DNA of 22,714 bases from an uncultured Eubacterium sp. (lineage in GTDB: Bacteria; Bacillota; Clostridia; Lachnospirales; Lachnospiraceae). The stretch lies in the NCBI GenBank assembly GCA_900548465.1, contig URKY01000039.1, forward strand, positions 1 to 22,714, in the 5' to 3' direction. Under the pieces are notes generated by a model. That model saw only the letters and a program-made list of their open reading frames with translations, did not search any database and had not been told where the DNA came from. Of the stretch, positions 5,516 to 22,714 are shown in pieces; the first letter of the stretch is position 1, and every line of letters starts with the position of its first letter. A program made the position numbers and the translations under genes.

Positions 5516-6703
5516 ATGGCAAAAGCTAAGTTTGAAAGAACAAAACCACATTGTAATATTGGTACAATCGGACATGTCGATCATGGTAAAACAACATTAA
5601 CAGCAGCTATCACAAAAGTACTCTCAGAAAGAGTTGAAGGAAATGACGCTGTTGATTTTGCTAACATCGATAAGGCTCCAGAAGAAAGAGAAAGAGGTAT
5701 CACAATCTCTACAGCTCACGTTGAATACGAAACAAAGAAGAGACATTACGCTCACGTTGACTGTCCAGGCCATGCTGACTATGTAAAGAACATGATCACA
5801 GGTGCTGCTCAGATGGACGGTGCTATCCTTGTTGTTGCTGCTACTGACGGTGTTATGGCTCAGACAAAAGAGCACATCTTACTTTCACGTCAGGTAGGTG
5901 TTCCAAAAATCGTTGTATTCTTAAACAAGTGTGATATGGTAGACGATGAAGAACTTCTTGAATTAGTTGAAATGGACGTTACAGAAATTCTTGAAGAATA
6001 TGGTTTTGAAGATTCACCAATCATCAAAGGTTCAGCTCTTAAGGCTCTTGAAGATCCATCATCAGAATGGGGCGACAAGATCATGGAACTTATGGATGCA
6101 GTAGATGAATACTTCCCAGATCCAGAAAGAGATACAGATAAGCCTTTCTTAATGCCAGTAGAAGACGTATTCACAATCACAGGTCGTGGTACTGTTGCTA
6201 CAGGTAGAGTAGAAAGAGGAACACTTCACTTAAACGATGAAGTTGAAATCATTGGTGTTAAGGAAGAAACACAGAAGACAGTTATTACAGGTATCGAAAT
6301 GTTCAGAAAGCTTCTTGATGAAGCTCAGGCTGGTGATAACATTGGTGCTCTTTTAAGAGGTATCAACAGAGACCAGATCGAAAGAGGACAGGTACTTGCT
6401 AAACCTGGTACAGTAACATGTCATAGAAAGTTTACAGCTCAGGTTTACGTATTAACAAAGGATGAAGGTGGACGTCATACTCCTTTCTTCAACAACTACA
6501 GACCACAGTTCTACTTCAGAACAACTGACGTAACAGGTGTTTGTGAATTACCAGCTGGTGTAGAAATGTGTATGCCTGGTGATAACGTAGAAATCACAGT
6601 TGAACTTATTCACCCAATCGCTATGGAACAGGGTCTTGGATTCGCTATCCGTGAAGGTGGTAGAACAGTAGGTTCAGGTAAGGTTGCTACAATCGTTGAA
6701 TAA
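5516..6703 (+). CDS. tuf: Elongation factor Tu
   Basis: EF-Tu is the GTPase that delivers aminoacyl-tRNA to the ribosomal A site. The 395-residue protein is full length. Motifs: G1 GHVDHGKT (about 18-25), switch [11 protein letters not shown]3 DCPGHADY, G4 NKCDMVDD, G5 GSALKAL. Beta-barrel domains II and III follow, including [14 protein letters not shown] and the C-terminal [15 protein letters not shown]. The ATG lies 9 bp after AGGAGG. It has its own promoter and terminator. The downstream flank of this gene is where the mobilizable element has inserted. Confidence 0.98.
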
Positions 6704-6725
6704 TTAAAATCAATCTAAAAACTTT

Positions 6726-6762
6726 AGCTCAGCCCTTTATTTATAAGGGGTTGAGCTTTTTT
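6726..6762 (+). terminator. Rho-independent terminator of tuf
   Basis: AGCTCA (6726-6731) pairs with TGAGCT (6752-6757), and CCCTT with AAGGG continues the stem. TTTTTT follows. It lies 22 bp after the tuf stop codon. Confidence 0.9.
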
Positions 6763-6785
6763 AGTTTTTAGACTCAAATTCCCCG

Positions 6786-6834
6786 TGCACTTGTTTTGCA
6801 CTTAAAAACTGCTTGTGCACTTAACAATGCACTT
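6786..6834. repeat. Left-end integrase arm-type repeats (attL side)
   Basis: TGCACTT occurs four times in the same orientation at 6786, 6797, 6816 and 6828, immediately beyond the 3' end of the integrase gene. The same heptamer occurs twice near the other end of the element. Clusters of short direct repeats at both ends of an element are what tyrosine integrases of the Tn916/lambda type bind with their N-terminal domain. Confidence 0.6.
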
Positions 6835-6838
6835 TGTG

Positions 6839-7917
6839 TTACGCAGTTTTCGCGTAAATCTTATGCCCGTTATCGTGTGCAGCCTCCATCATATCAACCA
6901 ATTCCTGCTGTTTGTTAGGATATAGATGGGAATAGGTATTTAGGGTTGTCTGGACTTTCTCATGTCCAAGTCGTTCTGATATGAGAAGTGGAGAACAATC
7001 TAAATGAATTAGATAACTTGCGTGAGAGTGTCGCAAATCGTGAATTCTGATTTTCTTAATGCCGGTAGCCTTGCAGGCTCTCGTGATACATCCGTTAATA
7101 TAACTTTTGGTAAATGGAAAGATTCTTTCTTTATCCGTAATACCGAAAAGTGAATCTACATATTCTTTTAATTCATTCATAACAAATGCCGGCATGGCAA
7201 CTGTTCTGACACTTTTAGGAGTTTTTGGACTTGTGATAATGTCTTTACCACCGGCACGTCTTAAATTCTTTGAAATGGAGATTTTGTTATTTTCAAAATC
7301 TATATCTTCTAAAGTCAGAGCCAGAAACTCGCCACATCTAAATCCCGAATAGTAGAATATCTGAAACATAATGTGTGCCGTCCTATCGGTAACAGAAGTG
7401 ATAATGTTTTCATATTCTTCAATAGTCCAGAAGTTTACAACAGTTGTACGCTTCCCCATTGAGCCAGCCTTGTGGCATGGATTAGAGGGAAGGTCGTAGT
7501 AGTTGACTGCAAAGTTTAAAATTGAAACAATCATATTGTTAATTCGTAAGAGATAGGCATCCGAATAACCTTTGTTAATCATTTCCGTCTGCCATGCTCT
7601 GATATCCTTTGCAGTAATCTTGTTTATCGCTTTTTTGCCGAAGTAGGGAAGAATAAGTTTTCTGAATACTGTTCTGTACCCATCAACCGTATTTTCCTTA
7701 TAACGAGAACACATATCTTTAATGTAGATATCATACAACGACTGAAACGTCATATCTGAACTTCCGTGTATCTGTTTTAGAAAATCATTTTCCCAGTTCT
7801 TTGCATCTCTCTGTAATTTGAAACCTCTTTTAAAGGCTTGTTTTCTTTTCCGTGAATGTCCGTGTAATAACATCGGACAAACCATGAATTTCGTTCTTCG
7901 TCTTTGTATACTGGCAT
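6839..7917 (-). CDS. int: Tn916-type tyrosine integrase with N-terminal frameshift
   Basis: This is a tyrosine recombinase that would catalyse element integration and excision. Intact in one frame from 7885 is the core-binding SAM-like domain (for example KENTVDGYRTVFRKLILPYF) and the catalytic domain. Catalytic residues visible are Arg in GFRCGEF, Lys in the SPKTPKSVRTV strand, HDLRHSHAS, LGHEKV and the Tyr in TLNTYSHL. The expected N-terminal arm-binding domain starts at an ATG at 7917 (MPVYKDEERNSWFVRCYYT) behind AGGGTGG, but in another frame. One A appears to be missing from the A-run at 7846-7849, where GKRKQ should be read. The ATG at 7885 has no ribosome binding site and lacks the arm-binding sheet. 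The gene lies 10 bp after the repressor gene. It is frameshifted unless this is a sequencing error or slippage. Confidence 0.85.
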
Positions 7918-7927
7918 TTATCCACCC

Positions 7928-8413
7928 TTATTGCTTGGTGGAAGATTCCTTAATCTGTTTGACGATAAGTTTGAACTGTTCTTTCTGAAAATCCATTATT
8001 CGCGATAATTCAGTTTCACTTACAGGGTAAGTTTGATTATCAATCTTTAATAAATAGGATGAAATTTCTTCACCACTATCTTTCTTGATTTTACAAGATT
8101 CACATTCAAACTTTGAAAGTTTAAGCCAATCGATATAGACATCAAGACCATGTTCATAAAATCCGTCCACTACGGTGCGGTAAAAACCATCTTCTGTAGG
8201 AAGGAAATCGTTAACTGAACAATCCAAAGCTTCTGCAATGGCAATCATCTGGTTAATACCAGGAGTACGATCGCCCTGTTCATATTTGGAAATAGTCCCA
8301 ACTTTCAGTCCGACAAGATTTGCTAAATCTTCCTGAAGCAATCCTTTCTTCTTTCTTAATTGTTTAATGTTTTGTCCGATTAATTTCTTTTCATCTTTGT
8401 TCAATTCTGTCAT
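7928..8413 (-). CDS. Xre-family HTH repressor of the element
   Basis: A DNA-binding regulator of 161 residues. The N-terminal HTH_XRE domain (about 10-70) reads IGQNIKQLRKKKGLLQEDLA, then GTISKYEQGDRTPG. The C-terminal half (about 75-161) is not recognised and contains a CESC pair. The ATG follows GAGGAGGTGAG. It is transcribed with the integrase in the minus direction and faces the mobilization genes, the usual position of an immunity/maintenance repressor in such elements. TATCAC/GTGATA half sites in its own promoter region suggest autoregulation and control of the divergent genes. Confidence 0.88.
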   Translation of the reverse strand: MTELNKDEKKLIGQNIKQLRKKKGLLQEDLANLVGLKVGTISKYEQGDRTPGINQMIAIAEALDCSVNDFLPTEDGFYRTVVDGFYEHGLDVYIDWLKLSKFECESCKIKKDSGEEISSYLLKIDNQTYPVSETELSRIMDFQKEQFKLIVKQIKESSTKQ

Positions 8414-8440
8414 GATTTCTCACCTCCTCAAAACAATACT

Positions 8441-8490
8441 ATCACATGAAAGAGTGATAAATTATAAAAACTAGCAAATAACCATCACAA
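8441..8490. promoter_or_regulatory. Divergent control region: repressor promoter and operator
   Basis: Minus-strand promoter: TTGTGA (complement of 8485-8490) and TATAAT (complement of 8461-8466) with an 18-bp spacer. A palindrome TATCAC-N8-GTGATA at 8441-8460 covers the predicted start point, and a third ATCAC half site (8484-8488) overlaps the -35. This arrangement suits binding by the adjacent Xre protein. Binding is inferred. Confidence 0.6.
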
Positions 8491-8524
8491 TATGTGGGAG
8501 TTGCAAAGAAGGGAGGAATATAGT

Positions 8525-8704
8525 ATGAGAGAAAAATATGTGGATGCTAATGAACTGGTACAGACATTAGGAATATGCAAAAGCAAGGCTTACGCAATTA
8601 TCCGAAAGCTAAACAGGGAATTGGAAAAACAGGGGTACATTACAATAGCCGGTAAATGCCCCAGAAAGTATTTTGAAGAAAAATACTACGGTTACGGAAG
8701 TTAG
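8525..8704 (+). CDS. Small HTH protein, excisionase-like
   Basis: A 59-residue protein starting at the ATG at 8525, which follows GGGAGG (8512-8517); an earlier in-frame ATG at 8492 lacks a ribosome binding site. Residues 6-30 (DANELVQTLGICKSKAYAII) form a MerR/excisionase-type helix-turn-helix, followed by a wing-like segment ending in PRKYFEEKYYG. Such small HTH proteins are common beside Xre and int genes in Firmicute integrative elements, where they act as excisionases or regulators; which applies here is unknown. The TAG stop is immediately followed in frame by TAA and then by TGA two codons later. Confidence 0.8.
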   Translation: MREKYVDANELVQTLGICKSKAYAIIRKLNRELEKQGYITIAGKCPRKYFEEKYYGYGS

Positions 8705-8721
8705 TAAAAATGACTTCCGTA
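8693..8721 (+). repeat. Inverted repeat across the HTH gene stop codon
   Basis: TACGGAAGT (8693-8701) and ACTTCCGTA (8713-8721) are a perfect 9-bp inverted repeat with an 11-nt spacer. No T-run follows, so it is more likely an RNA processing or stability hairpin, or a protein-binding site, than a terminator. Confidence 0.5.
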
Positions 8722-8752
8722 AAATTACAAGTGAATGAAAGAGGGTGAAAGC

Positions 8753-9010
8753 ATGACTAGAAAGACTTCGGAAGATATCCAAAAACAGATTGAGCAGCTT
8801 AAGAATCAGAAAAAGGAAGTGCTGGCAAAAGAAAGAGCACAGGCACGAAAGGAAAGAACCAGAAGACTGATTCAAAGAGGGGCGATACTTGAACAGTATT
8901 TGGACAATGCAGAAGACCTGACTAACGAAGATGTAGAGTCAATCGTTAAATATGCGTTTAATACACCATATGTCAGAGATCTTGTGCGAGGTTTGAATGA
9001 TGTTAAGTAA
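8753..9010 (+). CDS. DUF3847-like mobilization-region protein
   Basis: An 85-residue, highly charged protein. The start is placed at the ATG at 8753 behind GAGGGTG, rather than at the upstream ATG at 8735. Residues 5-45 are predicted coiled coil or helix rich in K, E, Q and R (for example IQKQIEQLKNQKKEVLAKER), followed by RRLIQRGAILEQYL, the sequence style of DUF3847 proteins found before mobA/mobL in Firmicute elements. It sits between the HTH gene and oriT, as accessory relaxosome proteins often do, so a MobC-like role is possible but unproven. Confidence 0.65.
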   Translation: MTRKTSEDIQKQIEQLKNQKKEVLAKERAQARKERTRRLIQRGAILEQYLDNAEDLTNEDVESIVKYAFNTPYVRDLVRGLNDVK

Positions 9011-9036
9011 ATTTGATAAGGTCCCGGAGCCTGCAA

Positions 9037-9165
9037 AGGGCGCACTTATGTACCACAAACAAGTTGTGGTACTTCCCGGTACAAGTACCGAACGCGCGCT
9101 CTCCGAGGGCTCCTGCGGAGTGCGGTAAACCAGTCAGAGCTACATTAAAATGTAGACTGACAGTT
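9037..9165 (-). other. Origin of transfer (oriT), IncQ/MOBQ type
   Basis: Read on the minus strand, a perfect 9-bp inverted repeat (GTACCACAA/TTGTGGTAC, 9050-9072) is followed directly by ATAAGTGCG then CCCT (9037-9049). TAAGTGCGCCCT is the nick-region core of RSF1010-type oriTs, also used by Gram-positive MOBQ plasmids such as pIP501, with cleavage after TAAGTGCG; here that would be between 9041 and 9040. The repeat-then-nick layout is the same as in IncQ. Further palindromes lie toward the relaxase gene: CGGTAC/GTACCG (9077-9090), CTCCG/CGGAG (9101-9120), and GTCAG/CTGAC enclosing CTACAT/ATGTAG (9133-9161). The cognate relaxase follows at 9214. Confidence 0.85.
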
Positions 9166-9213
9166 TTACTGTTTCTCGAACATTGAAAACTTAATATGAA
9201 GGAGGAGAAACAA

Positions 9214-10749
9214 ATGGCAATTTTCCATTTATCAGTAAAGATGATTTCCAGAGGAAAAGGAAAATCTGCCGTTGCAGCGTCGGCATACAGAAGTGGTGAG
9301 AAGATTACCAGTGACTATGATGGAATCACTCACGACTACACGAGAAAGCGTGGTATAGCCAAAACGCTAATAATGTTACCAGACAATGCTCCATTAGAAT
9401 TTTATAACCGTTCAACTTTGTGGAACGCAGTTGAGAAAATCGAGAAAGCAAAGAATTCTCAATTAGCCAGAGAGGTTGAGGTTGCCATACCAAATGAACT
9501 GTCAATTTCAGACCAGTACAGTTTGGTAAAAGAGTTTTGTAATATGAACTTTGTGGACAAGGGGATGATTGCAGATATATGTTTTCACAATAAAAAAGAC
9601 GGCAATCCCCATGCACACATAATGCTTACAGTTAGACCATTTAATGAAGATGGAAGTTGGGGAAGCAAGCAGAAAAAGGTTTATATTCTCGATGGGAATG
9701 GCGAAAAGATTTATGACAAAAAGAAACGTCAGTATAAATGTAAATCGGTTTCTTCGACTGACTGGAATGAAAGAAGCAATGTTGAGAAGTGGCGAAAGAG
9801 CTGGGCAGATATGTGCAACACATATCTTGAAAAATCCGGACATGATGAACGAATAGATCATCGCTCATATGAAAGACAAGGATTAGAGATTTTACCAACT
9901 GAACATTTAGGTACGGCAGCTTCACAGATGGAAAAGCGAAACATCAAAACTAAACGTGGCGATGTCAACAGACATGTCAGACTGATAAATAAAATGATTC
10001 AGTTCTACAATGATGAAATCGCAAGATTAAAGGAAGAAGCAAAGCAACTTATAAAGGACGTAAAAGAAAAGGTTGCTGGTATTGCAAAGAGACTTGAAGA
10101 TTTTAGAAAGAATTATATCTTTGCCACTTATGCAGAGATAAATAATGAACAAAAACTTTCAGAATATCGTAAACTGGTTCCAAAGGGAATGGATGTCATT
10201 AAGAAAGCATATGACCTTATAAGAAAACGAAACAGAATGGACGAAGAAAAACGAGCATACGCAGACGTAATGAATTCCAAAAAGGAAAAGAAAGCCCGAA
10301 GAAAACAGGCAGAGGAAATGTTCAATCAGTTGGTAGGCGAGCTTAATAAAGTGGATGGAAAGTTAAATGAATTACCACAGATGTATAGACTGTTTTCATT
10401 AGATGAAATGGAAGATGCAATCAAGAATGAAGAAAAATATGGTAGGGCAATAGCCAGACTGGAGAAGATGGCTGACAGAATAGAAACGGCTAAGGAAATA
10501 GCCTTATTGGAATATCAGGTTGAAAAGGAAAATATAGAGCCAGAGGATACACAGGCTGTAGAGGAAGAAAGAGCCAAGATAAGACCGGATATGGAGCAAC
10601 AGGCTAAAGGCGAATTGGTTGGAATGTATGGTAGAGATTTTGATGGAGAAACATTTGAGCATGCGGTTATGAAAGCAGATGTTGAATTGGGAGACGGCGC
10701 AACGGAAGAGAAGGATTATATCAAGTATAAAGAAAAATTGAGAAGGTAG
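9214..10749 (+). CDS. mobA: MobA/MobL (MOBQ) relaxase
   Basis: The 511-residue relaxase would nick oriT and pilot the single strand during helper-dependent conjugation. The start is the ATG at 9214 after GGAGGAG, not the ATG at 9196; this gives the typical N-terminus MAIFHLSVKMISRGKGKSAV. Tyr25 occupies the same position as the catalytic Tyr25 of RSF1010 MobA. The metal-binding motif is NPHAHIMLTVRPF (about 130-142), and HDERIDHRSYERQG also matches the family. From about residue 260 on, long charged helices probably form coiled coil. No primase or helicase domain is visible. The TAG stop is followed at once by TGA. Genes for a coupling protein and transfer channel are absent. Confidence 0.93.
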   Translation: MAIFHLSVKMISRGKGKSAVAASAYRSGEKITSDYDGITHDYTRKRGIAKTLIMLPDNAPLEFYNRSTLWNAVEKIEKAKNSQLAREVEVAIPNELSISDQYSLVKEFCNMNFVDKGMIADICFHNKKDGNPHAHIMLTVRPFNEDGSWGSKQKKVYILDGNGEKIYDKKKRQYKCKSVSSTDWNERSNVEKWRKSWADMCNTYLEKSGHDERIDHRSYERQGLEILPTEHLGTAASQMEKRNIKTKRGDVNRHVRLINKMIQFYNDEIARLKEEAKQLIKDVKEKVAGIAKRLEDFRKNYIFATYAEINNEQKLSEYRKLVPKGMDVIKKAYDLIRKRNRMDEEKRAYADVMNSKKEKKARRKQAEEMFNQLVGELNKVDGKLNELPQMYRLFSLDEMEDAIKNEEKYGRAIARLEKMADRIETAKEIALLEYQVEKENIEPEDTQAVEEERAKIRPDMEQQAKGELVGMYGRDFDGETFEHAVMKADVELGDGATEEKDYIKYKEKLRR

Positions 10750-11004: not shown

Positions 11005-13077
11005 ATGAAGAAAAACAGAAAAATATTAAAACAAATTTTGGCAACTTTAATAGTAATGACTATGCTACCAAGTGTTACTACCGTGGCAAATACTAAGAAC
11101 GAAAAAAAACAGAATATTGAAACTAGAAAAGAATATGTAGTATTTAATGATGAATTAGATAGTAAAAAAATAAGAAAAAAATCTTTAACCAAAATGGAAG
11201 TAGAAGAATTTAAACAAGAAAATGAGGATATTATAATTGAAAAAAATATAAAATTTAAAGCTAGTTGGAATGAGAACTATGTAGATCCTGAAGCTGTATC
11301 AGACGATTGGAATTTAAATATGATAAATGTAAATGATAGTGGTGATGAAATTGTAGCAGAGGATAAAATAAAAATTGCAATTATTGATTCTGGAATTGAT
11401 GTATGTGATGGAATAAGTGTTAAAGAAAGATATAACTTGGTTCCATCAGAAGAAAATGTAAATCCAATTTTTGATGATATTACTGGGCATGGTACAGCTA
11501 TTGCATCTATTATTTGCGGAACAAAGGATGCAGATAGAAAGTCATATGGTATAAATAATAATGTAGAAATATATTCTATAAAAATAATGGATGGAGATAA
11601 TACAGCTCCATTGGATAGAGTGGTAGAAGCTATATATAAGGCAATAGAATGTGATGTAGATATTATTAATATGAGTTTTGGAACAACACAGAATTCAAAG
11701 ATATTACAACAAGCTGTCGAAGCTGCTTATAGTGAAGGCATATTAATGGTAGCAGCAGCAGGCAATAGAGGTGAAGAAGATGGTGTTGTTGAATTTCCTG
11801 CAGCATATGATGAAGTTATGGCGGTTGGATCCGTAGATGCAAATGCACAAATAAGTGTCACAAGTTCTAATGGTGATGAAGTAGATGTTTATGCACCAGG
11901 AGATTATGTAAAAACAGCGACGAGTTTCGGATTAGAAACTGTGTCATCAGGAACAAGCATTGCTACTCCTCACGTAGTAGGTTTAGCAAGCATATTATGG
12001 CAACGAGACAGAAGTAAATCAGTTGATTATATCAAGCAATTAATAATTGATAGTTCAAAAGAAATTGAATCTAACAATAAAAAAATAAAGCTGATTGATA
12101 TAGGATATGCAGTGGACAAATATGATGATTTTGAGAAAACTTATAAAAATAATAAAAAAATAAAAAAGAATACGTCGGATACAATTACTTGTGAAGAAAC
12201 AGCTGAAGTATCAGCAAGATGGAGCAAAAATAAGCATGGAACATTAGTTATTAATAATGCAAATGGAAAATTAACAGAAGCTCAAGTGAAGATGGTACGT
12301 GCAGGAATAAGATATAATGACGAAATATTACCTGGAAGTACTAATTCAAGTGCAGGAATTAAGTATGAGCGAAGAGTGTGGCATTCTCTAACATATAGTG
12401 TTAATTATATGGCTGTTATAAATTATATAGGTAGAATTATTAGGAATACAGATTGTAGTACAAATATTACATATAATGATGTGACAAATTTTACAAGTGC
12501 ATATAGAACAAGGATAAACACAGATATAAATGCTATAAAAAAACCAGATTTGCTTCAAATAGGATTACATGGAGATAAGGACAGTAGTGAGTATAAAAAT
12601 TTGGATTTTGATTATAGAATGAGAAGATTACTAATCTTAGGTATGGAACTACACGTAATAACTGATGCTTTTGCACATCGTGCATATGGAATATCGCCAT
12701 ATTTGGCTGGTAATGATCCAAGTCATTGGATTAAAATAAGTACAGAGGATACAGATGGGGATGGAGTAAATGACCTTCTTGCAGATGATATAACTAGATA
12801 TCCTTCTAGATATGAGGCTGCAGGTAGAGTGGTAAGAAATGTTATGAATCAATGCTTGGTTTTTAATGATAATGATGTAGTACAAATGAAAAAAACAAAA
12901 TTAATATTAAGTAAACAGATAATGTACAATAATCCATTTTCATCTTTATCGAATACCGAGTTTAATGATAGATTTTTATTATACAAATTATATTCATATG
13001 CAAGTGCAAATTCTGCTTATGACAATACTTTTTCAACGTACAGTAATGCAATGGCAGGTGTTTCATATGAGTGGTAA
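11005..13077 (+). CDS. Secreted subtilase (S8) with C-terminal metal-hydrolase-like domain
   Basis: A 690-residue secreted serine protease. A signal peptide (about 1-30, KKNRK then a hydrophobic core) and a short pro-region lead to an S8 domain (about 115-375). The catalytic triad is Asp128 (AIIDSGID), His162 (ITGHGTAIAS) and Ser318 (SGTSIATPHV), with oxyanion Asn254 (AAAGNRG). A Lys-rich linker (380-395) precedes a second domain (about 400-690) with His460 (VWHSLTY), His522 (LHGDKD) and H550-x3-D554-x3-H558 (ELHVITDAFAH). That spacing resembles the metal ligands of zinc-dependent phospholipase C-like folds, but the second domain's activity is inferred. There is no cell-wall anchor, so it is probably released. 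The gene is AT-richer than the mobilization genes and forms a likely two-gene operon with the next gene, 12 bp downstream. Confidence 0.85.
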   Translation: MKKNRKILKQILATLIVMTMLPSVTTVANTKNEKKQNIETRKEYVVFNDELDSKKIRKKSLTKMEVEEFKQENEDIIIEKNIKFKASWNENYVDPEAVSDDWNLNMINVNDSGDEIVAEDKIKIAIIDSGIDVCDGISVKERYNLVPSEENVNPIFDDITGHGTAIASIICGTKDADRKSYGINNNVEIYSIKIMDGDNTAPLDRVVEAIYKAIECDVDIINMSFGTTQNSKILQQAVEAAYSEGILMVAAAGNRGEEDGVVEFPAAYDEVMAVGSVDANAQISVTSSNGDEVDVYAPGDYVKTATSFGLETVSSGTSIATPHVVGLASILWQRDRSKSVDYIKQLIIDSSKEIESNNKKIKLIDIGYAVDKYDDFEKTYKNNKKIKKNTSDTITCEETAEVSARWSKNKHGTLVINNANGKLTEAQVKMVRAGIRYNDEILPGSTNSSAGIKYERRVWHSLTYSVNYMAVINYIGRIIRNTDCSTNITYNDVTNFTSAYRTRINTDINAIKKPDLLQIGLHGDKDSSEYKNLDFDYRMRRLLILGMELHVITDAFAHRAYGISPYLAGNDPSHWIKISTEDTDGDGVNDLLADDITRYPSRYEAAGRVVRNVMNQCLVFNDNDVVQMKKTKLILSKQIMYNNPFSSLSNTEFNDRFLLYKLYSYASANSAYDNTFSTYSNAMAGVSYEW

Positions 13078-13089
13078 GGAGGATTTGAT

Positions 13090-14055
13090 ATGAAAAAGAT
13101 ATATTATATTCTAATAATAATGTTAATGCTTAATTTAAACTTGCTTATACCAGAAAATATAAGAGGGGAAACTATACAATCTGAAAATATTATAGATATT
13201 TCAGAAGAAAATTTCCCGGATCAAGTATTAAGAGAAATATTAATTAATGAAGACAAAGATAGAGATGGATATCTATCTGATGAAGAAATAAAAACTATAA
13301 AATCTATTAAATTAGATAAAATGTCATTGCAAGATGAAGAAACTGCAAGGGGACTAAAACCAATGCTGACAAAGGAAGAAAAGGCGAAAAGGTATTGCGA
13401 AATAAATCTTAAAGGTATTGATAAATTAACATCATTGCAAAGTATAGTCCTCGGAACTGGCTATTACAAAGGCTACGAGCAAAAGATATATAATTTTAAA
13501 TTATTATATAAAATGCCAAAGCTTATCGGTTTGCAATTTATTGGTAATAGTGGTATTAACAAATTGCAACTTTACAAATTTCAAAAGTTGAAGAATTTAA
13601 CGCTTTACAGTGCAGATTTTGATTCGATAAATTTTGGGAAAAAGTCTAAAATAGAAAATGTTAGTATTATCATGTGTAATATAAAAAAAAGACTTGATAT
13701 ATCACAATTAAAGAAACTTAAAAAAATCAAGATAGACCATAGTGTAATTACTGATTTGAGGATGGGGCATAAAAACAAGAAACTTGAAAAATTCTACATA
13801 AAAGCAGATTTAGATAATATAAAGAAGTGTAAAATAAGAAAACTAGACTTTTCTAATATGAAAAATCTAAAAACAGTAGAAATAAGAAGTTGGAACAAAT
13901 TAAAAAGCATTAAGTTTAAGAATAATAATAAGCTTAATAAGGTAAGAATTGTTGCTTGCCCAAAACTTAAAAATATTAGAATTGAAAAGTGTAAAAAAGC
14001 AAAGAAAATATCTAAACAAATTGGCCTAAAAAAATACACTGTTATAAAGCAATAA
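13090..14055 (+). CDS. Secreted EF-hand/leucine-rich-repeat-like protein
   Basis: A 321-residue exported protein of unknown function. Visible are a signal peptide (about 1-26), an ENFPDQVLREIL segment, an EF-hand or dockerin-like calcium loop (DKDRDGYLSDEE, about 55-66), and then irregular leucine/isoleucine-rich repeats (about 100-310) such as LKKLKKIKIDHSVITDL and NLKTVEIRSWNKLKSIKF. This architecture recurs in secreted proteins of gut Clostridia. The tail is very basic (KKAKKISKQIGLKKYTVIKQ). AAGGAGG precedes the ATG. The 12-bp gap to the protease gene implies co-expression, perhaps as binding partner, inhibitor or substrate of the protease; that is inference. Confidence 0.75.
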   Translation: MKKIYYILIIMLMLNLNLLIPENIRGETIQSENIIDISEENFPDQVLREILINEDKDRDGYLSDEEIKTIKSIKLDKMSLQDEETARGLKPMLTKEEKAKRYCEINLKGIDKLTSLQSIVLGTGYYKGYEQKIYNFKLLYKMPKLIGLQFIGNSGINKLQLYKFQKLKNLTLYSADFDSINFGKKSKIENVSIIMCNIKKRLDISQLKKLKKIKIDHSVITDLRMGHKNKKLEKFYIKADLDNIKKCKIRKLDFSNMKNLKTVEIRSWNKLKSIKFKNNNKLNKVRIVACPKLKNIRIEKCKKAKKISKQIGLKKYTVIKQ

Positions 14056-14566: not shown

Positions 14567-15640
14567 GTGGGGGATAAAGAGTTTTGGGAGAAACAAAAGA
14601 TTCCAAGAAATAATGTTGAATATGTTTATGAGGATATTTTGGATTACTTGCAACAATATCTGCCCAACTTTGTGGTAGCAAATGCAGTTGTACATTATGA
14701 CGAAGCAAGTCCCCATATGCATGTTGTAGGTGTTCCGGTTGGACGGGGATTTAAACGTGGATTAGAAACAAAAGTGTCAAAACGGTCGGTGTTTACGCAG
14801 GAAACCTTATCGAAGGTATTACAGGGAGAGTTAAGAGAAATCGCAGAATCATGTGTAATGAAGTATCTGAATATGGAATTTAAGGAAAAGCAAAAGGGAA
14901 GAAATTATGATCTATCTGTGATAGAGTACAAAGTAAAGAAGGAAACAGAAAAGGTATAGGAACTGGATAAGGTTCTGAAAGTACAATGCAAACAAAATGA
15001 AGAGTTATGTGAAAATCAGATTGAAATTGAGTAGCAGAATGAAGATTTGTATCGAGAGCAGAAAGAATTGGAAGAGAAAAAATCAAATTTGGAAATTGAC
15101 ATTTTTCGCAATCGGTTGGAGCAAAAATATTTGGAAGGAAAATGTGAAGAATCAAAGAAGAAGTTAGGAAAGTTAGATAAGGTGTTGGAAGGATTGGGAA
15201 AGGTAAAAAACTTCATCAAGTCATATTTACCGTTTGCACCATTGTTGGAAGAATTTGCAAATAAAGTTGAGAGTGGAGAGAAAGAATTGCAGGAAGGTTG
15301 CATTATTACGGGATATAAGTCTCCACTTGGAGAGCTGATGGAGTCATTTAAGGAGAAGTTTCAGGAACACTTCTATTGGTTTTCGAGATTGATGAGATGG
15401 AAAACAAGTAAAGGGGATGTTGCTCCAGTGTATCGGGATGTGTCAAATAATGGGGATTACTACGAGATAAAGGGATATGTGAATGTGGAAAGTCGGGCGG
15501 CTTATCGAGTGGAAGAGTTGTAGGACGAGATAAAGTCGTAGAATCGAGTTGGAACGCTGGATCAGATAGAACAGAATATTGAGGCTGTGAAAGTGCAGGT
15601 GAGGGGAATGATGGAGTTAAACAGAAGCAAGAGTCGATGA
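14567..15640 (+). pseudogene. 5'-truncated MobV (Mob/Pre) relaxase remnant with four in-frame TAG codons
   Basis: One frame runs from the IS junction to TGA at 15638-15640 (about 357 codons), interrupted only by TAG at 14957, 15032, 15521 and 15539. There is no internal TAA, TGA or frameshift. The first 130 residues contain the MobV motif HYDEASPHMHVVGVPV and KRGLETKVS, typical of Pre/Mob plasmid relaxases. The middle is a coiled coil rich in E, K and Q, and the end is a conserved-looking tail. The N-terminal part with the first relaxase motif is missing, replaced by the ISL3 end. Reading TAG as Gln restores a smooth sequence, since all four could be CAG-to-TAG changes. The open pieces at 14567-14959 and 15047-15523 are parts of this one gene. 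Confidence 0.8.
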
Positions 15641-16001: not shown

Positions 16002-16358
16002 GTGAGTATACAATATAAATTTAGGAAGGATTTATATTCTAAGGAAGCGTTAATAAAAGCGGCGTATAATTTTATTGATGATTTTTATATACATTTGGAC
16101 AGCAATAATAATTATTATATCGTTGACATAGATGCTCGAGAAACGAAAGGTGATTATCCAAAGATAAAGGAATTTCAAAATGAGATGCTGATTCAGGAAA
16201 CTAGGAAAATTGTAAATGATAAAACTATCAACATTCGTGAAATTATGTATTCAAGAGCAATGGCATCAACTGTAATTGATGAAAGTCAGCAGGAGGACAT
16301 AGTAGAAAATGAAAATGCTGACAAAATTTTAGTGGATTGGTTTGAAGAAAATGAATGA
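16002..16358 (+). CDS. hxsD: His-Xaa-Ser system protein HxsD
   Basis: A 118-residue protein. The start is the GTG at 16002, which follows AAAGGAGAG (15984-15992); the longer frame from 15954 lies in the terminator and lacks a binding site. It matches what is known of HxsD, the small partner of the His-Xaa-Ser radical SAM system: an early KAAYNFIDDFYIHLD segment (about 20-34) and the family signature region FQNEMLIQETRKIV (about 61-74), followed by NIREIMYSRA. Its job is unknown; small partners of radical SAM maturases often bind or present the substrate peptide. It is the first gene of the tight cassette and overlaps the next gene by 8 bp. Confidence 0.8.
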   Translation: MSIQYKFRKDLYSKEALIKAAYNFIDDFYIHLDSNNNYYIVDIDARETKGDYPKIKEFQNEMLIQETRKIVNDKTINIREIMYSRAMASTVIDESQQEDIVENENADKILVDWFEENE

Positions 16359-16563
16359 TTGTTTGAAACTAAATAAGGAACTTTATGCAAAAAAGATTAT
16401 TGAAGAGGTTATAAAAGATTATTCAGAGATTTGTATTGTATACCTCACTGAGAATGAAGGATATTATAATTGCAAGTTTCTTGATACTGTGATGGATAAG
16501 AAAATAACGATGAAAGAATTTGAAGATTATTTGATTGGTTTGACGAGAAAATATGAGTATTGA
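16351..16563 (+). CDS. HxsD-like small protein (paralogue of hxsD)
   Basis: A 70-residue protein from the ATG at 16351, overlapping the hxsD end; a TTG at 16342 is an alternative start. No clear Shine-Dalgarno is seen, so translational coupling to hxsD is likely. It parallels HxsD along its whole length: LNKELYAKKI against RKDLYSKEAL, ENEGYYNCKF against SNNNYYIVDI, and KEFEDYLIGLTRK against KEFQNEMLIQETRK. It lacks the acidic C-terminal tail of HxsD. It is probably a duplicated and diverged HxsD, possibly a second presentation subunit. The relationship was judged by eye. Confidence 0.65.
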   Translation: MNDCLKLNKELYAKKIIEEVIKDYSEICIVYLTENEGYYNCKFLDTVMDKKITMKEFEDYLIGLTRKYEY

Positions 16564-17587
16564 TTATATTACCGAAATTGCAATATTAGTGATATGTTTA
16601 ATTAGTATTTTTACAGATTTAAAGTATGGGATTATTAGAAATGTACATCTTCTAATATTTGGAACAATTGCAATTGGATTAAACATTATTTCTTTCTTTT
16701 TTAATAAAGATTTTGAAAGATTAGAATATCTTTGGGCTGTAATAATTAGTATTATAATTTCATTGATTTTATATTTTACAAAAATCTGGGCAGGTGGAGA
16801 CTGTAAGTTGTATTTGGTTATTGCGTTGTCGATGCCATATTGTATTGTAAGTAAGCAAACTTATAGAATAAGTTGGACTATTTTTGTTCCAATAATTGCA
16901 TTTTTAATTGGATATTTGTTTATAATTATAGATTCAATTTTAAAAAAAATTCAGAAAAAGGATAATAAAGAAGGAAAAGAAAATATATTAAAAAAATCCT
17001 TGGAAGGATTTATAAAATATTTAAAATATTATCTTGCAATAATATTGGTTAATCGAATATTATCAATGATGTATGTTGGATTGAACATAGCGACTGTCAA
17101 TAAATGGATAGCGTTAATGATCAATGTGACAATTATTATAGTTATTAGTAAACTTGACATTTTAAAATATAAGAGTGTGGTATTTACTCTGATAATTGTG
17201 GATATGGCAATCGGTGTATTAGACTTAGAATGGCTTTTTAACCGACAGACAATTTTGATATGGATTGCAATAATCATATCCAATATACTTAAAAATTTTG
17301 CCGACAGTTATAATTATGAGTACATAGATATTAATAAAGTTAGAGCAGGGATGATTTTGTCAACTGCAAGTTCCATGATTTTGGCAAATGATAAATTAAG
17401 CCAGTTTAAAAAAGTTTCGGATGAAACGCTAAAATCACGCTTAACAGAGGAAGATGTAGAGCAAATTCATGACTTTTTAGCAAAAAGAAATTATTTAAAG
17501 CAGGTTAGTATAGTAAAGAAAATACCATTTGCATTGTTTATATCAGTGGCAACAATTCTTGTCTTGATTGGAGGTAATTTGTTATGA
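16553..17587 (+). CDS. A24-type prepilin-peptidase-like membrane protein
   Basis: A 344-residue polytopic membrane protein. Two aspartates sit in the contexts that define the GxGD-type A24 prepilin peptidases: Asp22 in FTDLKYGIIRN (compare D-L-x-x-x-x-I-x-N) and Asp83 in WAGGDCKLYLV. About eight hydrophobic segments fill residues 6-255, including an inserted charged loop near 128-150. A cytoplasm-like segment (about 255-320) and a final hydrophobic helix (323-343) follow; the C-terminal part goes beyond a usual A24 peptidase. It overlaps the upstream gene by 11 bp and hxsC by ATGA. No pilin or competence genes are present, so the likely substrate is a cassette protein such as HxsA; that is inference. 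Confidence 0.75.
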   Translation: MSIDYITEIAILVICLISIFTDLKYGIIRNVHLLIFGTIAIGLNIISFFFNKDFERLEYLWAVIISIIISLILYFTKIWAGGDCKLYLVIALSMPYCIVSKQTYRISWTIFVPIIAFLIGYLFIIIDSILKKIQKKDNKEGKENILKKSLEGFIKYLKYYLAIILVNRILSMMYVGLNIATVNKWIALMINVTIIIVISKLDILKYKSVVFTLIIVDMAIGVLDLEWLFNRQTILIWIAIIISNILKNFADSYNYEYIDINKVRAGMILSTASSMILANDKLSQFKKVSDETLKSRLTEEDVEQIHDFLAKRNYLKQVSIVKKIPFALFISVATILVLIGGNLL

Positions 17588-18687
17588 TGCTAAAATTAAA
17601 TAATTATGATAGAGGATATCATATTGCATCATTTGCAAAGACTGATAGGACTTTAAATAATATGAAGTCCAGAGATTACAGTATTGTTTATTTAAAGGAT
17701 GATTCACTTGTTTTTTATCCAAAACAGTGGGAGATTAAATTGGAAGAAGATGAAATAGATGCTTTTAATCATGTTGGCGAATATAGCATTTTAGAATTTG
17801 GTAAAGATGGAGTTTATATTTATTATGATTCAACATCAGTCGACAACGCATTATTTATAACTAATAAATGTAATTCGAATTGTGTTATGTGTCCTACAAG
17901 TGATATTGTCAGAAAAAATTCTGGAATTGAGTCTGTTGATAACCTGTTAAAAATCAGTAGTCAGATTCCAAGTGATGCGGCACATATTACGATTACCGGA
18001 GGGGAGCCATTTTTATTAAAGAAAGATATTTTTAAACTTTTTAGTTATTTGAAGAGCAATTTAAATCAGGTGGAGTATTTGTTATTAACTAATGGAAGAG
18101 CATTGGCGGATAAAGAGTATTTTAACTTATTTAAAGAAAACGTACCTGACAATACTATTGTTGGAATTCCAATTCATGGATATGATGATATAACACATGA
18201 TGGAATAACAAGAGCAAAGAATAGTTTGCAGCAAACAGTCAAAGGAATAAAAAATCTATTGTCAGTCCACATAAGAGTAGAAATAAGAATTGTGGTAAGT
18301 AAATTAAATGCTGAATTTCTTGATAAAATTGTGGACTTGATAGTGACAGAACTAAAAGGTGTATATACCATAAAATTTATCGGGTTAGAGATGTTAGGAA
18401 ATGCTAGACGTAATATTGACCAAGTATGGATGAGTTATAGCGATTCGTTTAAATATATGAAACTTCCGATAAAAAAATTAGTTTTGGCTGGGTTTAATGT
18501 AGGAATATATAATTATCCATTGTGTTGTGTGGATAAAGGATATTGGCCTATATGTGAAAAAAGTATTACAGATTATAAAGTCAGGTATTTGTCAGAATGT
18601 GGTGCATGCTCAAAAAAAGATGCATGTGGTGGGATGTTTAATGGCACTTACAGGTTAATGGAAGGAATCGTGAAAGCAATAAAATGA
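17584..18687 (+). CDS. hxsC: His-Xaa-Ser system radical SAM maturase HxsC
   Basis: A 367-residue radical SAM enzyme. The 4Fe-4S/SAM motif is Cys96-x3-Cys100-x2-Cys103 (NKCNSNCVMC), followed by the glycine-rich TITGGEPFL strand. The C-terminal region has the pattern I associate with HxsC: YPLCCVDKGYWP, then SITDYKVRYLSECGACSKKD and CGGMF, likely auxiliary-cluster cysteines. The N-terminal 90 residues form a leader-binding-like or unassigned domain. The ATG overlaps the upstream stop (ATGA) and follows GGAGG (17569-17573). It is paired with the second radical SAM enzyme by another ATGA overlap. Expected chemistry is radical modification of the His-x-Ser repeats of HxsA; the product is not known. 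Confidence 0.88.
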   Translation: MMLKLNNYDRGYHIASFAKTDRTLNNMKSRDYSIVYLKDDSLVFYPKQWEIKLEEDEIDAFNHVGEYSILEFGKDGVYIYYDSTSVDNALFITNKCNSNCVMCPTSDIVRKNSGIESVDNLLKISSQIPSDAAHITITGGEPFLLKKDIFKLFSYLKSNLNQVEYLLLTNGRALADKEYFNLFKENVPDNTIVGIPIHGYDDITHDGITRAKNSLQQTVKGIKNLLSVHIRVEIRIVVSKLNAEFLDKIVDLIVTELKGVYTIKFIGLEMLGNARRNIDQVWMSYSDSFKYMKLPIKKLVLAGFNVGIYNYPLCCVDKGYWPICEKSITDYKVRYLSECGACSKKDACGGMFNGTYRLMEGIVKAIK

Positions 18688-20069
18688 TAGCACCATTTAA
18701 TTTTAAAAAATATGGAAATAAAATTTTAATAACGAATGATTTAGGAAGATATGATTTTTTAGAAGTTGATGAATTTGAGAGATTTGCAAATGATCATTTG
18801 GAGCAGAATTCAGAATTATATGACAGATTGAAAAGCAATTACTTTTTGTATGATGATTCATTCGAGCAGTTTATCGAAAAGATAAAACCAGAACTTCGCT
18901 ATGGTAAAAGTTATTTATTTTCTGCAACAAGTCTTCATATTTTTGTTGTGACAAATTATTGTAATGCACAATGTGTTTACTGTCAGGCACAGAGTGGCAA
19001 TATTAATATTTGTAAAATGATGAATGAGGATATAGCAAAAAAATCAGTAGATATAGCATTACAATCTCCACAGCGAGAACTAAGCTTTGAATTTCAAGGG
19101 GGAGAACCATTAAGTAATTTTCCGATTATTAAGTTTATTGTTGAATATTCAGAAAGAAAAAAGAAAGATAAAATTATTCATTATAGTCTTGTGAGCAATT
19201 TGTCGCTACTAAATGAAGAAATGGTAAAATTTTTTAAGAAACATAATGTATCTGTTTCTACGTCTTTGGACGGAAATAGAATGTTGCATAATCAAAATCG
19301 TCCTTTATCAAGCGGAAAGAATTCTTATAACATATTAAGGGAAAAAATAGAAATGTTAAGGGAAAGAGGTTTGAATTATGGAGCAATTCAGACAACAACA
19401 AAAGCATCATTAGAACAGGGAAAAGAAATCATAGATGAGTATTTAAATCTTGGGCTTGATAGTATATTTATTCGACCACTGACACCTTTGGGTTATGCAT
19501 TGGAAAGATGGAATGAAATAGGTTATACTGTAGAAGAATTTTTGAAATTTTATAAAGAATGCTTAAAGTATCTTATAAAAATAAACAAAAATGGCAAATA
19601 CATAAAAGAAGGTCATGCAGCTATTTTCCTGTCAAAAATTTTGCGAGGATATGGTGTAAATTATATGGAGTTGCGTTCTCCATGTGGAGCTTCGGTAGGA
19701 CAGATGGCATACTATTTTGATGGTAATATTTTCACATGTGATGAAGGTAGAATGCTTTATGAAATGGGGGATTCTTCGTTTAAATTGGGAAATGTGCTAA
19801 CTGACAATTATGACAAACTAATGAATTCAAAACTTTGTAAAACCATATGTAAGTATAGCATAATAGAGAGCGTTCCAAAATGTTGTGACTGTGTGTACCA
19901 GCCATATTGTGGAACTTGTCCGGTAATAAATTATGCATTGGAAAAAGATATAATAAGTAGAAAGAATAAAAATTATAGGTGTAGTACATACATGGGAATG
20001 ATTGATACTATTTTTGAACTTTTAATGGATGATGATAATATAGATGTTTTAAGGAGTTGGGTAGAATGA
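18684..20069 (+). CDS. hxsB: His-Xaa-Ser system radical SAM maturase HxsB (SPASM)
   Basis: A 461-residue radical SAM/SPASM enzyme. Cys93-x3-Cys97-x2-Cys100 (NYCNAQCVYC) binds the SAM cluster; FEFQGGEPLSNF is the GGE motif. The C-terminal SPASM domain has CGASVGQMAYYFDGNIFTCD, then CCDCVYQPYCGTCPV and a final Cys near 430, fitting two auxiliary clusters as in anSME-like maturases. An N-terminal stretch of about 80 residues precedes the barrel, as in HxsB. It is coupled to hxsC and to the MORN gene by ATGA overlaps on both sides. Role: with HxsC, modifies HxsA. Family assignment is from remembered signature patterns. Confidence 0.9.
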   Translation: MIAPFNFKKYGNKILITNDLGRYDFLEVDEFERFANDHLEQNSELYDRLKSNYFLYDDSFEQFIEKIKPELRYGKSYLFSATSLHIFVVTNYCNAQCVYCQAQSGNINICKMMNEDIAKKSVDIALQSPQRELSFEFQGGEPLSNFPIIKFIVEYSERKKKDKIIHYSLVSNLSLLNEEMVKFFKKHNVSVSTSLDGNRMLHNQNRPLSSGKNSYNILREKIEMLRERGLNYGAIQTTTKASLEQGKEIIDEYLNLGLDSIFIRPLTPLGYALERWNEIGYTVEEFLKFYKECLKYLIKINKNGKYIKEGHAAIFLSKILRGYGVNYMELRSPCGASVGQMAYYFDGNIFTCDEGRMLYEMGDSSFKLGNVLTDNYDKLMNSKLCKTICKYSIIESVPKCCDCVYQPYCGTCPVINYALEKDIISRKNKNYRCSTYMGMIDTIFELLMDDDNIDVLRSWVE

Positions 20070-21034
20070 AAGAAAATAAAATGTTAGGAGAAAATGCTGA
20101 AAGTAAAGCAAAGTTTTTTCAGAGGCATAAAAAAGCAACTATATGTATTGTAGTGCTTTTGATATTGGGGATAATAGGAAGTTATGGAGAAGAACCTGAT
20201 CAGAAAGAGGAGAAGAAAACTACAAAAGCGGTTGAGATAACTGTTAATCAATCCGTGAATCCAGTGCCGAATACGTCAAATGGTACATATTATGGTGCAG
20301 ATTTAGATTTAGAAAGTCATTCTGCTAAATTTGTATTTGATACGGGCGATTCCTATGATGGGGAATGGAATAAAGAGATTCCTGAAGGTAAAGGAAAGTA
20401 TGTTTATAAAAATACTGGCGAATATGATGGACAGTTTATAAATTGCCAGCGCGCAGGTGATGGACAATTTGTATGGGAAGATGGAAGTTCGTATATTGGA
20501 AAGTGGGAAAATGATAAAATAAATGGTAAGGGTACTTATATTTCTTCAAAGGATGTTACATTAAAAGGTATGTTTTCTGACAATAAATTTAATTCGGGAA
20601 CTTTGACATATACTGAGAATGGTAATGTATATAACTATAAAGTTGAAAATGGTGTATTTACTGGCAAAATTACAGTTAAGTACAGTAATGGAAGTAAATA
20701 TTCAGGAGAATATAAAGGTAATAAATTAAGTGGAAAAGGAACCTTAAAGTATAATAATGGGGACAAATATAAAGGAAATTTTTCTAATGGAAAAAAATCA
20801 GGACAAGGAAAATATACATGGAAAAACGGTGCTTATTATAAAGGGGATTGGAAAAACGATCAGATGAAGGGACAAGGAAAATATGTCTATGAGTCTGATT
20901 CAAAAGGAAAGTCTTTAAAAGGAAAATTTAAGAAAAATCAACCGATAGGTGTTTGCGTTTATAAAAGTAAAAAGGGTAAAAAATATAAAACTACATGGAA
21001 AAATGGAGTTTGTACAAAAGTAAAGGGGTATTAA
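20066..21034 (+). CDS. Membrane-anchored MORN-repeat protein
   Basis: A 322-residue protein from the ATG at 20066, which overlaps the hxsB stop and follows AAGGAG. A short basic cytoplasmic N-terminus and one membrane segment (about 23-40, ATICIVVLLILGIIGS) precede a low-complexity linker (45-72). About eight or nine MORN repeats (90-310) follow, such as YDGEWNKEIPEGKGKYVY, YSGEYKGNKLSGKGTLKY and YKGDWKNDQMKGQGKYVY. The repeats should face outside. MORN repeats are binding scaffolds; a role in holding HxsA or tethering the modified product at the envelope is suggested only by its position between hxsB and hxsA. It is 1 bp from the hxsA start. Confidence 0.85.
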   Translation: MKENKMLGENAESKAKFFQRHKKATICIVVLLILGIIGSYGEEPDQKEEKKTTKAVEITVNQSVNPVPNTSNGTYYGADLDLESHSAKFVFDTGDSYDGEWNKEIPEGKGKYVYKNTGEYDGQFINCQRAGDGQFVWEDGSSYIGKWENDKINGKGTYISSKDVTLKGMFSDNKFNSGTLTYTENGNVYNYKVENGVFTGKITVKYSNGSKYSGEYKGNKLSGKGTLKYNNGDKYKGNFSNGKKSGQGKYTWKNGAYYKGDWKNDQMKGQGKYVYESDSKGKSLKGKFKKNQPIGVCVYKSKKGKKYKTTWKNGVCTKVKGY

Positions 21035-21035
21035 A

Positions 21036-21557
21036 ATGGATAAAAAGTTATTTCCGACAATAAAGAAGTCAATAGATGATTTGATAAATGATGAAGAAGG
21101 TAACATCCCAAGAGGAAAGCTAGTTATGTTGGGCTCAACGATAATGTTAATGGGAATGATAATGGGGATAGATGTGTTTGCAGCACATTCTTCTCACAGA
21201 TCACATTCTTCGCATTCATCCCACTCGTCAACATCATACCACAGATCTCATGTGTCTCATACATCACATTCATCAGGATATGATCATTCTTCACATGGTT
21301 CACATAGTTCTCATAGTAATACGCATTCATCGCATGGATCTCATTCTTCGGCTCCTGCACATGTGAATTCAAATACTGGAGTAAGCCATATAAGTAATGC
21401 AGGAGGAAGTATACCAGGAACGTCAGAAATACCAGTACCACAGAAACCATTGGTAAATGATTTTGTGACAAAGTTACCAGATATATCGGCAGTAGTTGGT
21501 GTAGAAATTAATTCGGGAATTACAAATAAGCCAGAAATAAAGAAAGAGGCGGAGTGA
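21036..21557 (+). CDS. hxsA: His-Xaa-Ser repeat protein HxsA, presumed substrate
   Basis: A 173-residue protein behind AGGGG. The N-terminus has an acidic leader and the junction DEEGNIPRGKLVML (about 19-32), a hydrophobic segment (28-47), and a possible signal-peptidase site after FAA (48-50). Residues 51-105 hold 16 histidines, nearly all as His-x-Ser: 15 HxS units (HSS, HRS, HGS, HTS, HVS) and one HSN, with small interruptions (TSY, GYD). A Pro/Ser/Asn-rich tail (106-173) follows. This is the defining feature of HxsA, the peptide target of HxsB/HxsC. The repeated trinucleotide pattern is coding, not a DNA repeat array. Last gene of the cassette. Confidence 0.9.
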   Translation: MDKKLFPTIKKSIDDLINDEEGNIPRGKLVMLGSTIMLMGMIMGIDVFAAHSSHRSHSSHSSHSSTSYHRSHVSHTSHSSGYDHSSHGSHSSHSNTHSSHGSHSSAPAHVNSNTGVSHISNAGGSIPGTSEIPVPQKPLVNDFVTKLPDISAVVGVEINSGITNKPEIKKEAE

Positions 21558-21763: not shown

Positions 21764-22714
21764 GGCTCTTTGTCAAGCATGGGGGTAATCCATTATATAT
21801 ATCGTGTGTGATTTGTAATCACACACGATTTTTATATAGTATCACATGATAACATTATTCTGTTTCTGAAATTTTCAAAATTCCTATATCCATAAGCATT
21901 TCGCTTAATTACTTTAATCTTATTATTCATTCCTTCTGTATATCCGTTTGTATATGGGAAATCAAAACTGTTGAGTATGTATTTCGCCCAATTGGCAAGT
22001 GTAGTAAGTACTGAATTGAATTCAGCCAGTTCACTGACAGAGACGGCATTAATAAATTTACGAAGTTTGGGTTTGGCTTCGGAGCTGCTTTTAGAGTTCA
22101 TAAAGTCATAAAAAAAGTTCTTTTAAATAATAAGCCTGAGCGAGATCATTTGATTATTGTAACATTACTTCAAGAGCCTCAAGATTTTCTTTATTTAATT
22201 TATCTTTATGAGCGAGAATTAATTTACGGCTTCGTTTGAAATATTTTCTCTTTGAAGGATGCATCTGTTTTTGAATTCTAATTCGTACTCTTTCGGTAGC
22301 ACCGGTTACCTGTTTAACCACATGAAATTTATCAATAACAATGGTTGCGTTAGGCAACAGCCTCTGTGCAATATCCTTATAAACCTTGTACATATCCATG
22401 ACAAAGTAACGAACATCCTTACGGTTTGGAAAGTCTCTTAAGTATTCTTCAAGCCTGTATTGAGTTCTGGAAGGAAGAATGTCAAAAAATTTATGTTCTT
22501 TTGGTGCTGTCAGAATGGAATGATATTTATTCCCACCTGAATTACCCTTAAACTCGTCAATTGAAAGAACTAATGGAAGGGTTTTCGGTTTCTGGTGTTT
22601 GATGTCCCTGAGGCGTCTGAAAATAGAGGAAACGGATATCCCCAGCTGCGAGGCGACAGTTGAAACATTAAGAGAACTCTTTAACAGGTGTATTGCTTCA
22701 AAACATAAACGGGT
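21764..22714 (-). mobile_element. ISL3-family insertion sequence, running off the window
   Basis: The terminal sequence GGCTCTTTGTCAAG starts at 21764 and a transposase gene lies inward on the minus strand. The palindrome ATCGTGTGTGATT/AATCACACACGAT (21801-21829) lies between the IS end and the transposase stop, presumably to block read-through. The other end is outside the window. Confidence 0.88.
21832..22714 (-). pseudogene. ISL3 transposase, degraded and 5'-partial
   Basis: Reading the minus strand from the window edge gives an uninterrupted ISL3 (DDE) transposase segment: an HTH-like region (LNVSTVASQLGISVSSIFRR), SIDEFKG with the first Asp, VMDMYKVY with the second Asp, and VIDKFHVVKQVTGATERV. 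It then meets TAA at 22154-22156. A few codons later a 7-A run (22110-22116 on the plus strand), one base too long, shifts the frame. After it the gene resumes as FMNSKSSSEAKPKLRKF and reaches YTNGYTEGMNNKIKVIKR with the catalytic Glu, ending at 21832. The C-terminal part is therefore separated from the first two catalytic residues and the copy should be inactive on its own. Confidence 0.85.

Follow-up and report, generated by a model that had tools for sequence, protein, structure and literature searches.

A His-Xaa-Ser cassette whose HxsA3 precursor may be cut by a GxGD membrane peptidase encoded alongside it

The stretch of DNA analysed here, 22,714 nucleotides of contig URKY01000039.1 from an uncultured Eubacterium sp. 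(hereafter the window), carries at positions 16002-21557 seven genes, all on the + strand, that almost certainly make up a complete His-Xaa-Ser (Hxs) system of the HxsA3 type. We propose that the precursor HxsA3 is modified, that its leader is cut by a membrane peptidase of the A24 family encoded in the same cassette, and that its repeats are displayed outside the cell together with a MORN-repeat protein; for this chain as a whole we put the probability at about one half. HxsD and the HxsD-like protein would hold or present the precursor, and the radical S-adenosylmethionine (SAM) enzymes HxsC and HxsB would modify its His-x-Ser units in the cytoplasm. HxsA3 would then enter the membrane by the general Sec route, N-terminus inside, and A24 would remove the leader next to the membrane, most likely directly after an E-E-G motif. 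The modified repeat domain would remain outside, with its own membrane segment as anchor and the MORN protein as partner. More tentatively, and at somewhat less than even odds, the same may hold for an Hxs branch found in several phyla, Bacillota, Myxococcota and Elusimicrobiota among them: its product would be a His-Ser-rich surface protein modified by radical SAM enzymes, with a dedicated prepilin/FlaK-type GxGD peptidase and a non-canonical cut of its own, between E-E-G and x, to which Bacillota usually add a MORN partner.

The genes follow one another in the order hxsD, hxsD-like, A24, hxsC, hxsB, MORN, hxsA3. Adjoining genes share 4 to 11 bases (17 if hxsD-like begins at TTG), and 1 base separates MORN from hxsA3. 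A preliminary description of the sequence had reported such a series of seven genes with overlaps or near-zero gaps; all were found in place, and their families were confirmed by profile scores, five using the curated NCBIfam cut-offs and two, A24 and MORN, using Pfam gathering scores. The first gene, hxsD (16002..16358; GTG start, 118 residues), scores 81.2 bits with TIGR03976 (cut-off 50), and hxsD-like (16351..16563, from an ATG at 16351, with a TTG at 16342 as the alternative start) scores 63.5 bits with NF038315 (cut-off 41). The third gene encodes a GxGD membrane aspartyl peptidase with a C-terminal extension (16553..17587), which clears the gathering score of PF01478 narrowly (28.2 versus 26.5 bits). 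The radical SAM enzymes HxsC (17584..18687) and HxsB (18684..20069) reach 286.5 bits with TIGR03977 (cut-off 267.9) and 533.1 bits with TIGR03978 (cut-off 370), and both have an intact C-x3-C-x2-C motif, at 17869-17892 and 18960-18983. Their scores with their own hxs models far exceed those with other radical SAM models (the best 25 of 50 and of 63 families), so that their earlier assignment to the hxs families holds under a hidden Markov model search. MORN (20066..21034) scores 84.8 bits with PF02493 (gathering score 22.5) over five stretches and has an N-terminal hydrophobic segment in a Kyte-Doolittle window. Last comes hxsA3 (21036..21557; 108.3 bits with NF038309, cut-off 65), whose product consists of a leader, one hydrophobic segment, His-x-Ser repeats and a C-terminal tail. 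The repeats, which start at H51 and span 21186..21362 (right edge approximate), had been counted as 15 units; they are indeed there, but a regular expression finds 16 overlapping H-x-S matches. A defence-system identity was considered with the PADLOC models and rejected: HxsC and HxsB score 57.0 and 36.6 bits with viperin models against 286.5 and 533.1 with hxs models, and HxsD gives one marginal match (SduA, E 0.0043).

Such a cassette is more than a chance assembly, because dozens of further loci have their genes in this order. We collected relatives of A24 (120 listed of 278) and of HxsB (120 listed of 4715), and used an alignment of 27 HxsB proteins as query against genome contigs, where the best 80 of 579 confirmed matches were kept, and against viral contigs, where it gave 7 loci; a scan of the viral contigs with a single HxsB protein found no relative. 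Labels in L denote loci, and labels in G the genomes searched. From 87 loci plus the window, a clade of 56 was counted (L001-L049, L052-L056, L081 and the window), without 30 other loci and without L050 and L051, whose make-up differs although they branch inside the clade. HxsB is present in all 56 by selection; HxsC is found in 56 as well, A24 in 55, HxsA3 in 54, HxsD in 53, MORN in 46 and HxsD-like in 37. Some of the missing genes are explained by contig ends (L009, L019, L032) or by an assembly gap (L010). L032, the sole locus scored as lacking A24, ends at a contig edge with an A24 piece just upstream of its hxsC, and its genome holds two A24 pieces on two contigs; in the genome of L028, HxsA3 lies on a separate contig (L106). 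An apparent A24-HxsC fusion in L010, a frame of 1273 residues, was discarded because 2159 N inside the frame mark an assembly gap.

A24 is thus a core part of the HxsA3 subtype, and MORN a usual one. Both recur beside hxs genes, as the preliminary description had supposed, and its view of an expanded cassette in a Firmicute is right as to the presence of A24, MORN and HxsD-like, but the layout is the standard one for the whole clade and no expansion peculiar to this Firmicute; the second HxsD, counted there as part of the extension, is present here but inconstant across loci. Members of the clade are mostly Clostridia, joined by an Erysipelotrichaceae genome, two metagenome-assembled genomes (MAGs) of Eggerthellaceae, a viral contig and one member each of Spirochaetales and Synergistales. 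L052, from the culturable Anaerostipes butyraticus, has the cassette complete with MORN. In the class to which the genome of L010 belongs, the HxsA3 system is uncommon: HxsA3 was found in 2 of 291 sampled genomes, one of them L010's own.

Judged from its sequence, the window A24 is a GxGD-type membrane peptidase with an intact Asp pair, and its cleavage of class III signal peptides is presumed. The two presumed catalytic residues, D22 (16616..16618) and D83 (16799..16801, within G-G-D-x-K-L), are each kept in 58 of 59 A24 proteins. The preflagellin peptidase FlaK is the best match of the A24 structure model, and also the best in a profile search of the PDB (E 0.0018). The C-terminal extension is shared by other hxs-linked A24 proteins. 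Prepilin peptidases cleave after Gly or Ala, ahead of a hydrophobic stretch, according to a passage of PMC3244431. Aligned with one another, the 56 HxsA proteins that the HxsA3 profile retrieved all have a leader motif made of a mostly acidic pair followed by Gly (54) or Ala (2), and then a hydrophobic stretch. In the window this is E20-E21-G22 (21093..21101), after whose Gly the A24 cut is predicted. The first His comes 28 or 29 residues past the motif in 46 of the 56 (28 in the window). Thioether links are not the general modification, since only 7 of the 56 have a Cys past the motif. In L054 (6868-7645), a tandem pair of HxsA3 genes was observed, both with E-E-A in place of E-E-G.

The question arises as to whether leader motif and A24 go together. 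Among 28 genomes, a non-random set chosen for loci without an obvious A24 or for comparison, 20 have both the motif (E-E-G or E-E-A) and A24, one has the motif alone (G010, L063), one A24 alone (G004, a partial match with E 1.2e-5) and six neither. A24 was hence found in 20 of 21 motif-bearing genomes versus one of seven others (Fisher p 1.2e-4, uncorrected for kinship); several of the A24 matches are partial or off the hxsB contig, most of these in MAGs. Elsewhere, the HxsA proteins of 13 loci (L076, L082-L085, L087, L098-L102, L104 and L105; L086 and L103 were omitted, no HxsA being recognised there) have plain signal-peptide-like starts and no motif. These loci sit on plasmids, on viral contigs and in one MAG, and A24 is absent from all 13 over 7-10 kb on each side, where the contig allows. 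On the HxsB tree, where 80 of the 96 rows bore a label taken from the locus or its contig, A24 changes twice, compared with a shuffled mean of 14.8, and none of 500 shuffles was as low. With genome-level labels (93 rows, L051 being set to no A24 despite a weak match), the motif changes four times and A24 five. In G007, a recognisably similar HxsA leader has E-E-E where E-E-G would stand, and the genome gave no match to A24. Within the A24 clade sit L050 and L051, whose loci lack both A24 and HxsC (HxsC was sought at the locus only) and whose genomes gave no match to HxsA3. Because classical loci pair HxsB, HxsC and HxsD with a motif-less HxsA, the motif more likely serves A24 than the radical SAM step.

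Several observations weigh against a cut by A24 after E-E-G. The prepilin rule, as worded in a passage of PMC3244431, is [GAS]-4 uncharged-[DE] followed by 14 uncharged residues. It is matched in full, anywhere, in only 5 of the 56 HxsA, and the window site departs from it by R26 and K28 past the Gly; the eight residues past the motif carry a net positive charge in 54 of 56. Since HxsA3 departs from the rule, its identity as a type IV pilin was rejected. For FlaK, residues past the cut matter too, with a +3 Gly in archaellins (from part of PMC4390842), and HxsA3 is without this Gly. The window G33 (G in 51, A in 4 and S in 1 of the 56) is an alternative possible A24 site. Just three independent motif/A24 pairs stand on supported branches (p 0.25), too few for significance; in these, A24 follows the motif in 2.9 on average and never the opposite. 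Finally, 50 of the 56 have an A-x-A-like pattern (small-x-A/G) no more than 5 residues ahead of the first His.

This last pattern fits the most serious alternative, in which HxsA3 would be secreted in the ordinary way, with signal peptidase I cutting at A-x-A to remove both leader and hydrophobic segment, and with A24 acting elsewhere in HxsA3 or on another target. The unmet prepilin rule and the 13 loci with signal-peptide-like HxsA starts and no A24 nearby also speak for it. However, it leaves unexplained why A24 is nearly constant in the clade and why it co-occurs with the leader motif. Nor does any family outside the core recur widely: six neighbour clusters occur in at least 4 of the 56 loci and none in more than 10, prepilin features in neighbours being unscreened. 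Pfam matches for members of three of these clusters point to a metallo-beta-lactamase/fn3 protein, to mixed membrane proteins (one without a Pfam match, two DUF5050-like, one DUF4236) and to VanZ, and two further clusters resemble recombinases by eye. We regard a purely secreted HxsA3 as unlikely, though it is the strongest of the alternatives.

Cutting by A24 would leave the repeats anchored, and the MORN protein is the candidate partner. In 45 of the 46 loci with both genes, hxsA3 is the next gene after MORN on the same strand, the pair standing after hxsB or before hxsD; a weak MORN-like gene lies downstream of HxsA3 in L019 (the MORN call of L054 is weak as well). By Kyte-Doolittle, 45 of the 46 MORN proteins have a hydrophobic segment within their first 110 residues, several having two or three, and in L024 it lies further in. 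Eight loci have HxsA3 without MORN. By eye, the HxsA3 proteins of four of them (L004, L012, L015, L018) share an additional region at the C-terminus, and those of two others (L005, L021) end in a hydrophobic stretch with a lysine tail; Pfam at E 0.01 gave no match for L012, L005, L021 and L038. The data fit a location outside the cell for the MORN part and the HxsA3 repeats, with a topology presumed from the hydrophobic segments. Processing and display at the cell envelope, as put forward in the preliminary description, is in this light a fair reading, given the membrane segments, an A24 active site that is intact and the tendency of A24 and E-E-G to occur together; cleavage and display themselves are its predicted steps.

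Two further explanations concern the repeats. They may form a metal-binding surface protein in which the radical SAM change is minor, as their very high His content could suggest. Weak, sub-cut-off Pfam matches to ZIP and Ctr metal transporters go the same way, but probably reflect composition only, and the near-constancy of HxsC, HxsB and HxsD (in loci collected by HxsB) represents much machinery for plain metal binding; we consider this improbable. Least probable of all is a small released peptide, a bacteriocin or a signal, with A24 as its leader peptidase: the radical SAM maturation genes and the leader-core layout resemble pathways for ribosomally synthesized and post-translationally modified peptides (RiPPs), and the HxsB profile has its best PDB match in 5wgg (E 2.3e-33), which we take to be the peptide maturase CteB, but no exporter was recognised in the recurring neighbours scanned (one recurring cluster was not scanned), the repeats come after the hydrophobic segment, MORN partners have hydrophobic segments, and six of the MORN-less HxsA3 proteins have the C-terminal additions described above.

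As to the other Hxs proteins, the HxsD model has a beta-alpha-beta-beta-alpha fold (predicted local distance difference test score, pLDDT, 86.6). Its top PDB matches have Pcc1-like and designed ferredoxin-like folds (Foldseek E no lower than 0.019), and a winged-helix RiPP recognition element was not seen in the model. In L050 (9688-13926) and L051 (8143-11880), HxsB, accompanied by HxsD in L050, stands beside a CxxC-rich membrane-like protein and a protein with a His-Ser-Gly tail, which in L050 has a TPM domain by Pfam; this is possibly another type of HxsB substrate. Three Myxococcota loci on short contigs (L067, L073, L075) have HxsB and HxsD-type genes with no recognised HxsA or HxsC nearby, and no match to A24 or HxsA3 was found in their genomes. 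In L057, L069, L072 and L078, from records of Schekmanbacteria, Moraniibacteriota, Elusimicrobia and Portnoybacteria, five to seven HxsC-profile matches lie beside hxsB, some of which may be other radical SAM proteins.

Genes of mobile elements lie near the cassette. An integrase group (6839-10749) comes right downstream of a gene that looks EF-Tu-like by eye (5516-6703); in the group Pfam recognises a tyrosine integrase (6842-7885, - strand), a helix-turn-helix repressor (7931-8413, - strand) and a MobA/MobL relaxase (9214-10746). The cassette thus seems, from its gene neighbours, to sit on or beside an integrative mobilizable element; when repeats that could mark the attachment site of the integrase were sought, 6601-6850 gave no exact 15-base match to anything beyond 10500. 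A fragment of a Mob_Pre plasmid recombination enzyme (14567-14959, Pfam), upstream of the cassette, is a second mobile remnant, and right after hxsA3 comes an ISL3-family transposase in two separate frames (21832-22399, Pfam). Positions 11005-14055 encode a subtilase (PF00082) and then, on the same strand, a protein with leucine-rich repeat similarity below the Pfam cut-off, both with signal-like starts by eye. In the plasmid collection, the window A24 has no match. HxsB matches by tblastn occur in 537 plasmid records, 323 of them from Klebsiella, the weakest being other radical SAM proteins; hxsB is named in 21 of 40 rows spread over these matches.

In print, the His-Xaa-Ser motif of Haft and Basu putatively depends on HxsB and HxsC for maturation (in a passage of PMC9062424), hxsA-D are listed among the genes of a Pseudomonas aeruginosa region (in part of PMC8446631), and PMC6537148 has one mention of His-Xaa-Ser. 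Within literature searches whose scope excluded subscription papers and preprints, no paper was found tying A24 or MORN to hxs, or showing the Hxs product or its purpose; none was found joining 'prepilin peptidase', 'radical SAM' and 'RiPP' (subscription papers again outside the scope), and for 'MORN repeat' with 'radical SAM' the only match, judging from the abstract, concerns domain identification. Hxs genes are widespread, including on plasmids, and a large branch of them nearly always comes with a membrane peptidase and usually with MORN. This offers a maturation route open to test, since it names the precursor and predicts where the cut should fall, which two Asp residues are needed for it and where the product should end up. 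Should the route hold, a pilin-type peptidase would be put to an unusual use, and pilin-type processing would have been borrowed for the modification of peptides.

The classical His-Xaa-Ser system is reportedly that of Haft and Basu, with HxsA, HxsB, HxsC and HxsD. Like it, the window clusters the gene of a His-x-Ser repeat protein with those of HxsB, HxsC and HxsD. NCBI families for HxsA3 (NF038309) and HxsD-like (NF038315) are already known, and the window proteins score above both cut-offs; both are protein models, and no NCBIfam model was seen linking A24 or MORN to hxs (none is given for the window A24). The order in the window, D-(D-like)-A24-C-B-MORN-A3, differs from the classical D-B-C-A of L099 and L104, and its HxsA3 has an E-E-G leader, unlike classical HxsA. 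In the classical loci L099, L104 and L105 no A24 was found, and their annotation, in an incomplete gene table, lists no MORN or second HxsD. With peptidases of the FlaK and TadV type, the hxs A24 shares the Asp pair, the GxGD-type motif and the fold, whereas it differs from them by its long C-terminal extension and by a proposed substrate that departs from the prepilin rule.

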